Positions 2,695-5,876 of a stretch of 64,000 nucleotides of DNA are shown here, in pieces. The stretch is from positions 1,054,001-1,118,000 of the forward strand of contig NZ_FOZE01000002.1 in NCBI RefSeq assembly GCF_900113225.1, given 5' to 3'. Each line of letters begins with the position of its first letter. Position 1 is the stretch's first letter. A program made the position numbers and the translations under genes. The notes beneath the pieces are model-generated. The model had not been told where the DNA came from and did no database searches. It saw only the letters and a list, made by a program, of their open reading frames with translations. The stretch is from Mitsuaria sp. PDC51 (GTDB taxonomy: Bacteria > Pseudomonadota > Gammaproteobacteria > Burkholderiales > Burkholderiaceae_C).

Positions 2695-3402
2695 TCAGCG
2701 GTTGAGCGCGCGGCAGCGCTCGATGTCGCAGGCGGTGGGCAGCGCCGAGCGGTACTCGACGACGCTGCCCCAGGCCTTCGGGTCGCGCAGCGCGCAGCGT
2801 TCGCCCTTGCCGTTGTCGTAGTAGGACATCGTGTCGACGCAGCGTTTCGAATGCGCCATCAGGCCGAGGAAGTGCCCCATCTCGTGCGACAGCACCATCT
2901 GCAGCGTCTGCGCCGCCGGGTGTCTGGGGTTGCGCTCGCGCAGCAGCGCGAACAGCGCCGGCCCGATCGACAGGCTGCGCGCGCCCACGTTGGCCAACGC
3001 GAACTGGCCGCGGCTGCCGACGTCGCTCCACAGGATCTGGATGGCGTCCTCGGGCGGCGCCTGGCCGCGCGGCACCGCGATGACGGCGAGCTTGAGCCCG
3101 CAAGCGGACCAGGCCTGGGCCGAGCGCGTCACGAGCGCCATCACCTGCGCCTCGCTGAACCATGGCGGCGCGTTGTCGTGCCGATAGGCGAAGCGCAGCG
3201 CGCGCGAGGCGATCGGGTGATCGCGCCCATCGCCCCAGGTCTGAAGCTCGCCGGGGCGGCATTCCGCGATTTCCTGGTCGCGCACCGAGGGTGCGGCCGG
3301 CGTCTTGCCGGTGTCCGGCGGCACGAACTGGGCGAGCGCCGTGGACGAGGCCAGCACGAGCGCGGCGGCGACACGCGCAGCCGCCGCGGCCGCGGCAGTC
3401 AT
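2695..3402 (-). CDS. Secreted matrixin-like zinc metalloprotease
   Basis: A 235-residue protein with an N-terminal signal peptide (Ala-rich, ending near LAQ at about residue 25). The zinc site is the metzincin motif HEMGHFLGLMAHS near residue 170, giving three histidine ligands and the catalytic glutamate of the HExxHxxGxxH type, followed by a DTMSYYD stretch that supplies the Met-turn. It is therefore probably a small extracytoplasmic matrixin-type protease; its substrate is unknown. The ATG at 3402 overlaps the stop codon of the upstream exporter gene (ATGA), so the two are translationally coupled. A much longer frame extends upstream to 4407, but that part only shadows the exporter gene. 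Confidence 0.85.
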   Translation of the reverse strand: MTAAAAAAARVAAALVLASSTALAQFVPPDTGKTPAAPSVRDQEIAECRPGELQTWGDGRDHPIASRALRFAYRHDNAPPWFSEAQVMALVTRSAQAWSACGLKLAVIAVPRGQAPPEDAIQILWSDVGSRGQFALANVGARSLSIGPALFALLRERNPRHPAAQTLQMVLSHEMGHFLGLMAHSKRCVDTMSYYDNGKGERCALRDPKAWGSVVEYRSALPTACDIERCRALNR

Positions 3403-4283
3403 GCGGCGCGCAGCGCGCCGCGCATCCGCGGCCACAGCAGGTTCACCGCCAGGCCGCTCATCACCAGCGCCGCGGCCATCAACTTCCAGGGCGGCAGGCC
3501 TTCGCCCAGCAGCAGCGCGGAGCAGCTCATGCCGAAGACCGGGACCAGCAGCGCCATCGGGACGATGGTCGCGGCGGGATGGCGCGAAAGCAGCCAGCTC
3601 CAGGCGCCGTAGCCGAACAGCGTGTTCCCGACCGCCTGCCAGAGCACGGCGGCCCAGGCGCCGAGGCCGGCGTGCTGGAGCGCCTCGCCCATGCGGGCCG
3701 GGCCTTCGACGACGAAGGAGAGCGCGAACAGCGGCGGCGCGGCGAAGGCGCTGCTCCAGACCACGTAGGCGAGCATGTTCACGGAGCCGGCGCGCTTGCC
3801 GACGATGTTGCCGCTGGACCAGCTGAAGGCCGCCAGCAGCACCATCGCCAGGCCGAGCACGGTGGTGGTGCCGTCGGTGTGCGACGCGATGACGCCGATG
3901 CCGGCCGCGGCCATGGCCAGCGCGAGCCACTGGAAGCCCTGGACGCGTTCGCCGCTCAGGCGCATGGCCAGCAGCAGGGTGAAGAAGACCTGGGTCTGGA
4001 TGACCAGCGAGGCGAGCCCGGGCGAGATCTGCGAGCGCATCGCCAGGTAGAGCAGGCCGAACTGCCCGACGCCGACCAAGGCGCCATACGCGGCGAGGTT
4101 GCGCCAGCCCACCTTGGGCCGCGGCAGGAAAAGGATGGCCGGCAAGGTTGCCAGCGTGAATCGCAGCGCCGCGAACAGCAGCGGCGGGAACGCGTTCAGG
4201 CCCCAGCGGATCACGACGAAGTTGCTTCCCCAGATGGCGACCACGGTCAGCGCGAGCAGGAAATGGCGGAGCGGGAGCGTCAT
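3399..4283 (-). CDS. EamA/DMT family exporter, similar to cysteine exporter EamA
   Basis: A 294-residue inner-membrane protein with about ten transmembrane helices forming two EamA repeats. The opening VVAIWGSNFVVIRWGL, the RPKVGW turn, the GLASLVIQTQVFF helix and the SWSSGNIVGKRA segment closely parallel E. coli EamA (YdeD), which exports O-acetylserine and cysteine. Substrate assignment by this resemblance is an inference; related DMT proteins export many metabolites. It ends in an ATGA overlap with the secreted metalloprotease, making a two-gene operon. Start chosen at the ATG at 4283, directly before the first hydrophobic helix; no strong ribosome site is visible. Confidence 0.85.
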   Translation of the reverse strand: MTLPLRHFLLALTVVAIWGSNFVVIRWGLNAFPPLLFAALRFTLATLPAILFLPRPKVGWRNLAAYGALVGVGQFGLLYLAMRSQISPGLASLVIQTQVFFTLLLAMRLSGERVQGFQWLALAMAAAGIGVIASHTDGTTTVLGLAMVLLAAFSWSSGNIVGKRAGSVNMLAYVVWSSAFAAPPLFALSFVVEGPARMGEALQHAGLGAWAAVLWQAVGNTLFGYGAWSWLLSRHPAATIVPMALLVPVFGMSCSALLLGEGLPPWKLMAAALVMSGLAVNLLWPRMRGALRAA

Positions 4284-4650
4284 GGCGGCCAGGGCGAGCG
4301 GGGGGACCGCCGACTATGCCAGCGGGCCCCCGCGGCGGCCCGGTACAGGGACTTGCGATGCCGACCGGTACAGCGGACGTTGCCGGCGCCTGACGAGTTT
4401 CAGCCACTTAATATTGACCAGCGCCGGGCTCGAATGCCCGACCGACTTGTTTTCACCGGGCCGCAGCGAGCATGCGGAGGAATTCCCACTGATTTCAGTT
4501 AACAGATATCCATGATGGAATTTCCCCTAGTTCCAGCGATATCCATCGGCATTTAGCGTTGCTCCGCGACTCGAGAAATACGAAGGGGTCGCTCCTGGCG
4601 CCGCCATCCCGGCGGCCTTCAATATCGACAGGATTCATAGGAGAACGCAT
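4284..4650. other. 367-bp intergenic region upstream of the microcin-like gene
   Basis: No gene is supported here. The part from about 4480 to 4570 is markedly richer in A and T than the flanks. It contains a 9-base direct repeat GATATCCAT at 4505-4513 and 4538-4546, 33 bases apart (about three helical turns), which would suit a regulator site. A ribosome site AGGAG at 4639-4643 precedes the ATG at 4651. An open frame on the minus strand across 4495-4923 is antisense to the peptide gene and has no coding character. Confidence 0.6.
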
Positions 4651-4935
4651 ATGTTGACGATGGAACTCTCCCAAGCCGGATTCCGCGAACTGTCTGCGGA
4701 GGAAATCGACAGCGTGGCCGGCGGCTGGGACACGCAAGCCGCCGTCCAAGGGGCCTGGGCCGGTGCGGTCGGGACCGGCATCGCCGGGGGAATCACCGGC
4801 GCGGTGCTGGGCCCCGGCGCGGCATTTGGTTTCGGCGTCGGGTTCATCGCGGGCGGCATCGGCGGCTTCATCGGCGGCGGGCTGTTCAGCGGCGGCCTCA
4901 GCTCCGAGCGCCAAATCTCCCACGCGCAGCAGTGA
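4651..4935 (+). CDS. Double-glycine-leader bacteriocin/microcin-like peptide precursor
   Basis: A 94-residue precursor. Residues 1-25 read as a double-glycine leader ending in EEIDSVAGG, closely matching the leader pattern of class II microcins (for example microcin V, ELDSVSGG), with cleavage expected after Gly25. The remaining 69 residues are mostly Gly/Ala with many GxxxG motifs (AGAVGTGIAGG, GFIAGGIGGFIGG), typical of helix-packing, pore-forming class II bacteriocins, and contain no cysteine. Such leaders are normally removed by a C39-peptidase ABC exporter, which is not in this window. AGGAG lies eight bases before the ATG. The stop overlaps the start of the next gene. A non-bacteriocin exported peptide is the main alternative. 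Confidence 0.75.
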   Translation: MLTMELSQAGFRELSAEEIDSVAGGWDTQAAVQGAWAGAVGTGIAGGITGAVLGPGAAFGFGVGFIAGGIGGFIGGGLFSGGLSSERQISHAQQ

Positions 4936-5153
4936 AGCGCTTCCTGGCCGACAAGCCAGTTTCCGCGACGACGCTGTCGCCGCGTTGGCTGGTCAGGTCG
5001 GTGAGCCTGATCGCCATCCTCCAACCGGTCGTCCAACGCGGTTTGTTCGGAGATTGGCCCACGCTGCCTTCCTGGGCGCTGACGGTTTTCTGCACGGCCC
5101 TCTTGCTCAGCCTGATCGCCTGGACGGCAGGCGGGTTTGAGAAACGTGGCTAG
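4932..5153 (+). CDS. Small two-helix membrane protein, candidate immunity protein
   Basis: A 73-residue protein starting at a GTG (4932-4934) that overlaps the TGA of the microcin-like gene (GTGA), indicating translational coupling. It has two hydrophobic segments, about residues 19-39 and 47-67, separated by a short GDWPTLPS loop, and a basic C-terminus FEKRG. I recognise no family. Size, membrane nature and coupling to a double-glycine peptide gene fit a self-immunity protein, which is an inference from context; it could also be a second peptide or an accessory factor. Confidence 0.6.
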   Translation: MKRFLADKPVSATTLSPRWLVRSVSLIAILQPVVQRGLFGDWPTLPSWALTVFCTALLLSLIAWTAGGFEKRG

Positions 5154-5163
5154 AAACTAACCG

Positions 5164-5189
5164 GCGGTCGTCGAGTATTCGACGACCGC
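5164..5189. terminator. Hairpin between convergent genes
   Basis: A perfect 11-bp inverted repeat (GCGGTCGTCGA, loop GTAT) lies just after the two-gene microcin-like unit and before the end of the convergent Lrp-type gene. Neither side has a long T-run; the minus-strand side is followed by GGTTAGTTTCT. It is a probable bidirectional terminator. Confidence 0.65.
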
Positions 5190-5246
5190 ATTCCCATTCA
5201 CCGAAAGTAAAGTGGATAGATATGCCGGAAGTTTCTCCGCCGTCGC

Positions 5247-5876
5247 TCATCCCTTCGGTTTCAAATGCCCGAGCGGTAATGCGCCGCCGGCCTTTACTTC
5301 ACCGAGCGAGAAACTCGTGTGGATATCTTTCACGTTCGGCAGGTTCAGCAGCGTGTCGATCGAGAACCGGCTGAACGCATCCAGGTCGGTCGCCATGACC
5401 TCGAGCTCGAAGGTGCCCGCGCCGCTGATGTAGTGGCAGGCGATCACCTCCGGCAGCTGCCGGATCGCCTCCTCCAGCTCCTTCGTCGCGGCGCCGTTGT
5501 TGCGGTCCGCGTCCACCCGCACGAACGCGAGCACGCCCAGGCCCAGCCGGCGGCGGTCGATCTCCGCGCGGTAGCCGGTGATGAAGCCCTGCTCCTCCAG
5601 CCACCGCACCCGCCGCCACGTCGGCGCCGGCGACAACCCGATGCGCGCCGCCAATTCGGCGTTGGACAACCGCGCCTCGCGCTGCAGTTCGGCCAAGATC
5701 GCCACGTGATACCGGTCGAGTTCCCCGTTCGGCGCCCCGCCATTCAATCCATTCGACCCACCGATCGACCCACCGATCGACCCGCCCGGCCCCACCCCGT
5801 CCGCGGCGTCGTCGCCGCCCGGCGACCCTGCCGGCACCCTCATGGTTTTCCCTGATGCGCCATTTTTCGATGCCAT
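5247..5876 (-). CDS. Lrp/AsnC family transcriptional regulator with Gly-rich N-terminal extension
   Basis: A 209-residue regulator. From about residue 53, LDRYHVAILAELQREARLSN begins the winged helix-turn-helix of Lrp/AsnC proteins (NAELAARIGLSPAPTWRRVRWLE), followed by an RAM effector domain (VIACHYISGAGTFELEV). The first 52 residues are an unusual low-complexity tail containing tandem GGSI units encoded by roughly three 12-bp repeats at 5749-5784. Removing them leaves a normal-size family member of about 155 residues, so a downstream start cannot be excluded. The gene is divergent from the indolepyruvate oxidoreductase and probably controls it in response to an amino acid, by analogy with other Lrp-type neighbours; this is inference. 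Confidence 0.88.
   Translation of the reverse strand: MASKNGASGKTMRVPAGSPGGDDAADGVGPGGSIGGSIGGSNGLNGGAPNGELDRYHVAILAELQREARLSNAELAARIGLSPAPTWRRVRWLEEQGFITGYRAEIDRRRLGLGVLAFVRVDADRNNGAATKELEEAIRQLPEVIACHYISGAGTFELEVMATDLDAFSRFSIDTLLNLPNVKDIHTSFSLGEVKAGGALPLGHLKPKG

Follow-up and report, generated by a model that had tools for sequence, protein, structure and literature searches.

Microcin V (colicin V; class IIa, PF17508) has a C-terminal disulphide and a membrane-active core, and its exporter is CvaB. The class IIb bacteriocins of Gram-positive bacteria (Bacteriocin_IIc, PF10439) join a double-glycine leader to a GxxxG core. A third system of this kind is Cdz of Caulobacter (CdzC/CdzD/CdzI). 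In the excerpts of PMC5380434 on which we draw, Cdz-like peptides have 60-151 residues and a leader ending in G[GAS], carry one or two glycine zippers that are flanked but not interrupted by a proline or charged residue, and are encoded within 10 kb of a type I secretion system; they form surface aggregates and kill by contact.

The window, by which we mean the whole stretch of 64,000 nucleotides analyzed here, comes from a Mitsuaria genome of 5.85 Mb and contains a gene for a small double-glycine (GG) peptide that runs directly into a gene for a small membrane protein. The features of this locus are as follows.

3399..4283, minus strand: left flank, EamA-family transporter, outside the cassette (PF00892, 4.8e-33)
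4376..5246, no strand: variable slot between the flanking genes, from comparison with relatives
4639..4643, plus strand: Shine-Dalgarno AGGAG of the precursor gene, read directly, 7 nt before the ATG
4651..4935, plus strand: gene for the 94-aa precursor, with a C39-type double-glycine leader and a glycine-zipper core, from the ORF and homologues
4651..4725, plus strand: leader, 25 aa, ending VAGG, from seven aligned leaders of the genus
4726..4932, plus strand: predicted mature core, 69 aa, without Cys, with zipper stretches and a polar/charged C-terminus
4932..5153, plus strand: putative immunity protein, 73 aa, GTG start, overlapping the peptide stop codon, with homologues
5164..5189, minus strand: 11-pair hairpin between cassette and regulator, T-rich tail on the minus strand
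5247..5876, minus strand: right flank, Lrp/AsnC-family regulator, outside the cassette, present in 16/16 genus genomes

The pair resembles microcin V in its double-glycine leader, its glycine-rich core and its small, immunity-like membrane neighbour; C39-ABC and MFP exporters are present in the genome, and homologues of the peptide match PF17508 weakly over the leader and core start. Unlike microcin V, the pair has no adjacent exporter, the core has no cysteine, the host belongs to the Burkholderiales, and no match rises above the cut-off. By the general definition of a class II microcin in PMC9746304, the locus has a small precursor whose N-terminal signal ends in GG or GA (94 aa, VAGG) and, close to it, a possible immunity protein in the range of 30-250 aa that as a rule contains a TM segment (73 aa, one clear segment); the genome holds C39-ABC transporters with triad motifs and MFPs, none of them beside the pair.

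The likeness to Cdz lies in listed sequence features more than in gene arrangement. Measured against the excerpted description (PMC5380434), the 94-aa precursor falls within the length range and its leader ends in GG, the zippers follow the pattern given, with only Pro55 inside a 49-residue stretch, and the further sequence feature checked in the window peptide is LSSERQISHAQQ. Charge-free zipper stretches, a polar C-terminus, a small TM protein of the immunity type and a patchy distribution are likewise common to both. The locus departs from Caulobacter Cdz in having one peptide instead of two, a partner that is not a 3-TM protein, and no secretion genes closer than 10 kb; on the contig, the first exporter match is 440 kb away. 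With the class IIb bacteriocins the window peptide has the GG leader and GxxxG core in common; the PF10439 cut-off is exceeded by one other cassette from the genus, whereas the window peptide has no match at E<=1 to either PF10439 or PF17508, and its host is Gram-negative.

The peptide, its partner and their homologues

The sequence-only reading had described a 94-aa precursor with a leader ending in EEIDSVAGG and a cysteine-free core of 69 residues, its stop codon overlapped by the start of the next gene; the lengths and coordinates were confirmed, and the overlap is the 4-base GTGA at 4932-4935. Residues E13, L14, E18, V22, G24 and G25 are invariant among seven aligned leaders of the genus, and cleavage would be expected after G25. 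The core is 72% G/A/V/I/L/F and 30% Gly. Eleven GxxxG motifs start within it, none of them spanning Pro55, and the 49-residue zipper stretch that begins at G34 contains no charged residue and no proline other than Pro55. The claim that the upstream DNA is AT-richer than its surroundings also held, the GC content of 4380-4650 being 0.554 compared with 0.700 for the window, a value as low as only 0.16% of 1,275 sliding 271-bp windows. A sigma-70 promoter scan gave no match.

Bacteriocin profiles, proposed earlier as a check, gave a divided answer. The window peptide passes no Pfam or NCBIfam cut-off, and its best matches (0.0086-0.032) cover the leader and core start; its homologues do match MccV, weakly and likewise below cut-off. 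The homologue in genome G013 gave DUF5862 at 0.0018, Bacteriocin_IIc at 0.024 (L010) and MccV at 0.049, and the homologue in G002 gave MccV at 0.056. These MccV matches are weak and are inflated because the sequences are glycine-rich. A lantibiotic or other modified peptide was considered and rejected: the CTB-bacteriocin (0.0086), lichenicidin (0.022) and Mersacidin (0.032) models all stay below cut-off and extend no further than the leader and the beginning of the core. On either side of the pair, where the neighbouring genes were considered, lie EamA and Lrp/AsnC. A search of solved structures returned three weak matches, the best over the core being an Rhs-family fragment (6xrr_J, E 0.0038, residues 37-83).

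The partner had been read as a two-helix membrane protein. One of the helices stands: hydropathy shows a clear TM segment at about residues 42-70, and each of the two homologous partners has one clear TM segment. The other, at residues 20-38, is only borderline (mean 1.22). The motif R-x-x-[FY]-G-[DE]-W-P is common to the 73-aa protein and its homologues. The hairpin downstream carries a T-rich tail on the minus strand and so more likely terminates the AsnC transcript than that of the cassette; shuffles of the region yield one such site on average.

Several lines of evidence bear on whether the pair is real. A loose scan for an acidic leader, a GG motif and a Shine-Dalgarno sequence found one ORF in the 64 kb, the precursor itself, and nothing in the reversed window. 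Since simulated windows give 0.13 matches on average (8/60 with one), the leader alone is weak evidence; what places the pair beyond chance is that two further genomes have homologues of both genes side by side. Within a set of 16 Roseateles/Mitsuaria genomes, own included, the full-length peptide and the partner occur in the same three: the source genome, G002 and G013, the last two taken as Roseateles aquatilis CCUG 48205 and Mitsuaria sp. GD03876. The peptide homologues share 52% and 54% identity with the window peptide and keep its leader, GG site and glycine positions; for the partners the identities are 35% and 24%. In the same two genomes (G002 and G013) the flanking genes are far more similar, at 92% and 94% for EamA and 84% and 83% for AsnC, the latter including its variable N-terminus. 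Peptide and partner are spaced by -4, 0 and +7 nt in the three pairs. Codon differences from G013 number 24/27/45 at positions 1/2/3 of the peptide gene (87 codons), a clear excess at the third; for the partner they number 40/27/47 (69 codons), and the third-position excess is weak.

Only three such pairs emerged from the genomes searched. A peptide profile built from three sequences matched four of the 16 genus genomes, and the fourth, distant match (G009, 4.6e-8) is another GG peptide at another place; a partner profile had no match in 13 of the 16. A single-sequence search at E<=0.01 matched 14 of 100 relatives, own included, strongly only in G002 (2.5e-25) and G013 (9.0e-22), the remainder scoring 0.0005-0.01 and proving, in several of those read, to be glycine-rich cross-matches. 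In a sample of 399 genomes of the family, with at most 13 candidates scored per genome and five genus members among the entries listed, the peptide profile matched one genome, the source genome. Carriage by phages or plasmids was rejected after tblastn of both gave no match.

A variable chromosomal slot

The cassette is an accessory element that is swapped at a fixed chromosomal slot. EamA adjoins AsnC, with a gap of less than 4.3 kb, in ten of the 16 genomes, own included. EamA was not found in the roughly 10 kb taken around AsnC in G008, G003, G011, G012 and G001, and G006 has it at a distance of about 8 kb. Among the ten slots, three hold the pair and three are nearly empty (105 bp in G005, 212 bp in G007, 334 bp in G004); one carries another GG peptide with a TM protein, one a HipBA-type module, and two other ORFs. 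The replacement in G009 (L061:721-1486; GC 0.57) consists of a different, 68-aa double-glycine peptide, which matches PF10439 Bacteriocin_IIc at E 0.002, below cut-off, a 95-aa protein with three predicted TM segments, and an ORF of 60 aa judged TM-like by eye. The slot of G010 (L059:7447-9082) encodes a HipA-like protein and an HTH partner.

At the left edge of the slot, conserved DNA upstream of EamA stops near 4374-4377 in most comparisons and near 4390 against G004; 92-95 bp match the window in G002, G010, G013, G005, G009 and G007, about 108 bp in G004 and 70 bp in G014, while G015 has a long match to G014 only. Beyond this edge, similarity to the window resumes only in G002 and G013, inside their peptide genes.

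The earlier suggestion had been that the lack of any C39 exporter in the genome, together with conservation of the pair as a housekeeping locus in all relatives, would count against a microcin. Neither half holds: the genome has C39 exporters, and the pair is found in 3/16 genus genomes and is missing from G010, whose exporter (98% identity) and, among the genomes where EamA was found, whose EamA (95%) make it the nearest relative. The patchy occurrence, the exchange of slot contents and the pair-less nearest relative fit an accessory conflict cassette and not a housekeeping locus.

Three further observations concern the slot. Two GGTACAG-like copies, 25 bp apart and operator-like, lie in window positions 4283-4376 and are kept, with changes, in most of the ten genomes. 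In G013 a helicase-like ORF of 1,163 aa (AAA_11/AAA_12), possibly defence-related, adjoins the pair (L063:6992-10483). The ORFs in the slots of G015 (L067) and G014 (L068) appear leucine-rich-repeat-like by eye.

Exporters and leader-bearing cassettes in the genus

No C39 domain and, by motif scan, no ABC-type ORF is present in the window, and an exporter beside the pair was rejected. A look for a C39-peptidase ABC exporter elsewhere in the genome had been proposed as a check, and there are seven Peptidase_C39 matches. The three inspected (L029, L031 and L032) are complete C39-ABC exporters of 705-726 aa with Walker A and LSGGQ, the C39 Cys, His and Asp motifs, and an HlyD-type MFP nearby in each case. 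The L031 locus, 440 kb from the pair, consists of a LuxR protein with an autoinducer-binding domain, an MFP and the C39-ABC exporter, whose gene is at G000:C4:1498799-1500976; no GG peptide was found beside it. Orthologues of this exporter (78-98% identity) occur in nine other genomes, or 10/16 in all. A leader profile picked out three credible GG leaders in the source genome: that of the window peptide (1.4e-8), that of a 49-aa peptide beside L032 (4.3e-8), and that of a 190-aa protein beside L029 (0.0015). Three further matches (0.46-3.3) were set aside as noise.

The 190-aa protein (L029:10917-11489), next to a C39 exporter and MFP, has a long, acidic, glycine-rich tail and no Pfam match. 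An adjoining ORF (L029:10015-10851) and downstream ORFs in L097 and L102, all next to double-glycine peptides, have a motif resembling G-x-C-x-x-A-C-A-x-Y by eye; P0002, the one motif protein scanned from these three loci, had no Pfam match.

Across the genus the leader profile gave 39 matches in 13 of the 16 genomes, and the translated matches look by eye like plausible small GG precursors. Fifteen are linked to an exporter and 24 are unlinked, that is, no exporter was detected within 10 kb (the nearest case is at 18 kb). None of the 39 lies within 200 kb of an L031-type exporter on the same contig. A small membrane-protein neighbour, defined as an ORF of 45-180 aa with a predicted TM segment no more than 75 bp downstream, follows 14/24 unlinked leader ORFs compared with 1/15 linked ones; ten of the 24 unlinked ORFs have none by that criterion. 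The background frequency of such neighbours is 123 of 1,666 stop codons in the window, and 6/155 for frames of at least 200 aa. The difference between unlinked and linked ORFs has a raw p of 0.0018, which becomes 0.020 after homologues are merged by eye on the partner side only. Counted by 19 core families it is 8/12 vs 1/7 (p 0.057), with one family of four linked and four unlinked members put among the unlinked by rounding, or otherwise 7/11 vs 2/8.

One unlinked cassette, L084 in G007, scores 28.6 bits against Bacteriocin_IIc, above the cut-off of 27.1, and matches MccV weakly (0.0021, below cut-off); two of nine genus peptides scanned had no match at E<=0.5. Of the 10 genomes with an L031-type exporter, 8 have unlinked leader ORFs, compared with 1 of the 6 that lack it (two-sided Fisher test, p 0.035); this is a hand tally over 16 related genomes in which shared ancestry is uncorrected and contig ends are ignored. 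Parts of PMC9746304 provide a precedent for one exporter serving two microcins. The assignment of an exporter rests on the correlation just given, and we give about an even chance to export of the window peptide by the solitary LuxR-linked exporter.

A wider model may be put forward tentatively, and we consider it somewhat short of an even prospect. In Roseateles, the conserved, peptide-less, quorum-sensing-linked LuxR-MFP-C39 exporter would serve a whole set of unlinked peptide/immunity cassettes with only the leader in common, their cores and membrane partners being varied, which swap in and out of fixed slots (one gun, many bullets). The exporter-linked peptides, most of which have no immunity-like partner, would then make up a class of their own.

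Function of the pair and its place among known systems

The leader, the zipper core, the tightly spaced partner, the co-occurrence of the two genes, their divergence relative to the flanks, the replacement of slot contents and the exporters are together best explained by a bacteriocin with its immunity protein. We consider it probable that the pair is a bacteriocin cassette, encoding an unmodified class II microcin-type glycine-zipper peptide (MccV/Cdz-like) and its cognate immunity protein, with export in trans. A microcin with an immunity protein had been the original proposal; the layout, homologous pairs and exporters agree with it, and we infer the function from them.

The cassette would act as follows. 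Precursor (94 aa) and membrane protein (73 aa) would be made from one message by translational coupling. A distant C39-ABC exporter, most likely the LuxR-MFP-C39 system 440 kb away, would recognize the ELxxEEIxxVxGG leader, cut after GG and export the 69-aa core. In close relatives, the core would insert into the inner membrane through its GxxxG helices and permeabilize it, delivery being either diffusible, as in MccV, or from the producer surface, as in Cdz. The producer would be protected by the 73-aa protein in its own inner membrane.

The manner of delivery divides the bacteriocin reading. A Cdz-type surface aggregate that acts by contact only, in place of a diffusible microcin, is a sub-case of that reading which we regard as possible but rather doubtful. 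The peptide shows four Cdz-like sequence features, and most Cdz-like clusters in the survey also have a single peptide, as far as the excerpts of PMC5380434 go; the same survey required secretion genes within 10 kb, which this locus does not have, and the partner has one or two TM segments, not three.

The bacteriocin reading of whichever kind has to be set against other uses of the same parts. C39 exporters secrete pheromones too, among them ComC-type peptides. The window peptide could accordingly be a double-glycine, pheromone-like signal exported by a C39 system, with the membrane protein as its receptor or processing factor, and the LuxR with an autoinducer-binding domain beside the peptide-less exporter may tie the export locus to cell-cell signalling. 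We judge this unlikely. A hydrophobic zipper core of 69 aa does not resemble that of a soluble pheromone, the stretch between the flanking genes showed no regulator or kinase in addition to the pair, another cassette of the genus passes Bacteriocin_IIc, and sequence divergence together with a slot in which one peptide/TM cassette takes the place of another is a better fit to toxin and immunity.

Zipper cores also occur in non-toxic envelope proteins, and related peptides do match Gly-zipper domains weakly (0.024 and 0.18). A structural or adhesive surface protein of the glycine-zipper amyloid type, accompanied by an assembly partner and killing nothing, is nevertheless quite improbable, as such a protein would not be expected to be patchily distributed, to be replaced in the same slot by another GG peptide/TM cassette, or to keep a tightly spaced TM partner. 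That the two ORFs arose by chance in GC-rich DNA, or are decaying, is scarcely credible, even though the loose leader scan matches in 8/60 simulated windows and long antisense ORFs overlap the pair, given two same-slot homologous pairs in which the leader, zipper and tight spacing are intact and a peptide gene whose substitutions are highest at third positions.

With the bacteriocin reading preferred, its novelty can be assessed. According to the portions of PMC10233263 and PMC9746304 used here, all microcins confirmed up to 2022 are from Enterobacteriaceae, and portions of PMC13101503 describe class II microcins in Serratia marcescens that were validated in 2026. Predictions of Cdz-like glycine-zipper systems from 2017 include Burkholderia cepacia and Xylella (excerpts of PMC5380434). 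A betaproteobacterial example had been singled out as being of interest. That judgement stands insofar as the Roseateles/Mitsuaria family, with its exporters and immunity candidates, provides a concrete, testable case, and a non-exhaustive literature search had no paper on a Roseateles/Mitsuaria microcin among the matches listed; the novelty is smaller than claimed because of the 2017 listing for Burkholderia cepacia. Since the peptide has the Cdz sequence features and no secretion genes within 10 kb, it represents a known kind of system in an arrangement that surveys based on exporter proximity would have dropped.

The genus-wide set of exporter-unlinked cassettes with a common leader is the less expected part. 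Should the solitary LuxR-linked exporter indeed act in trans, searches that require a nearby exporter, as the Cdz survey did, would miss such cassettes; in this genus 24 of the 39 ORFs with the leader are remote from every exporter detected.
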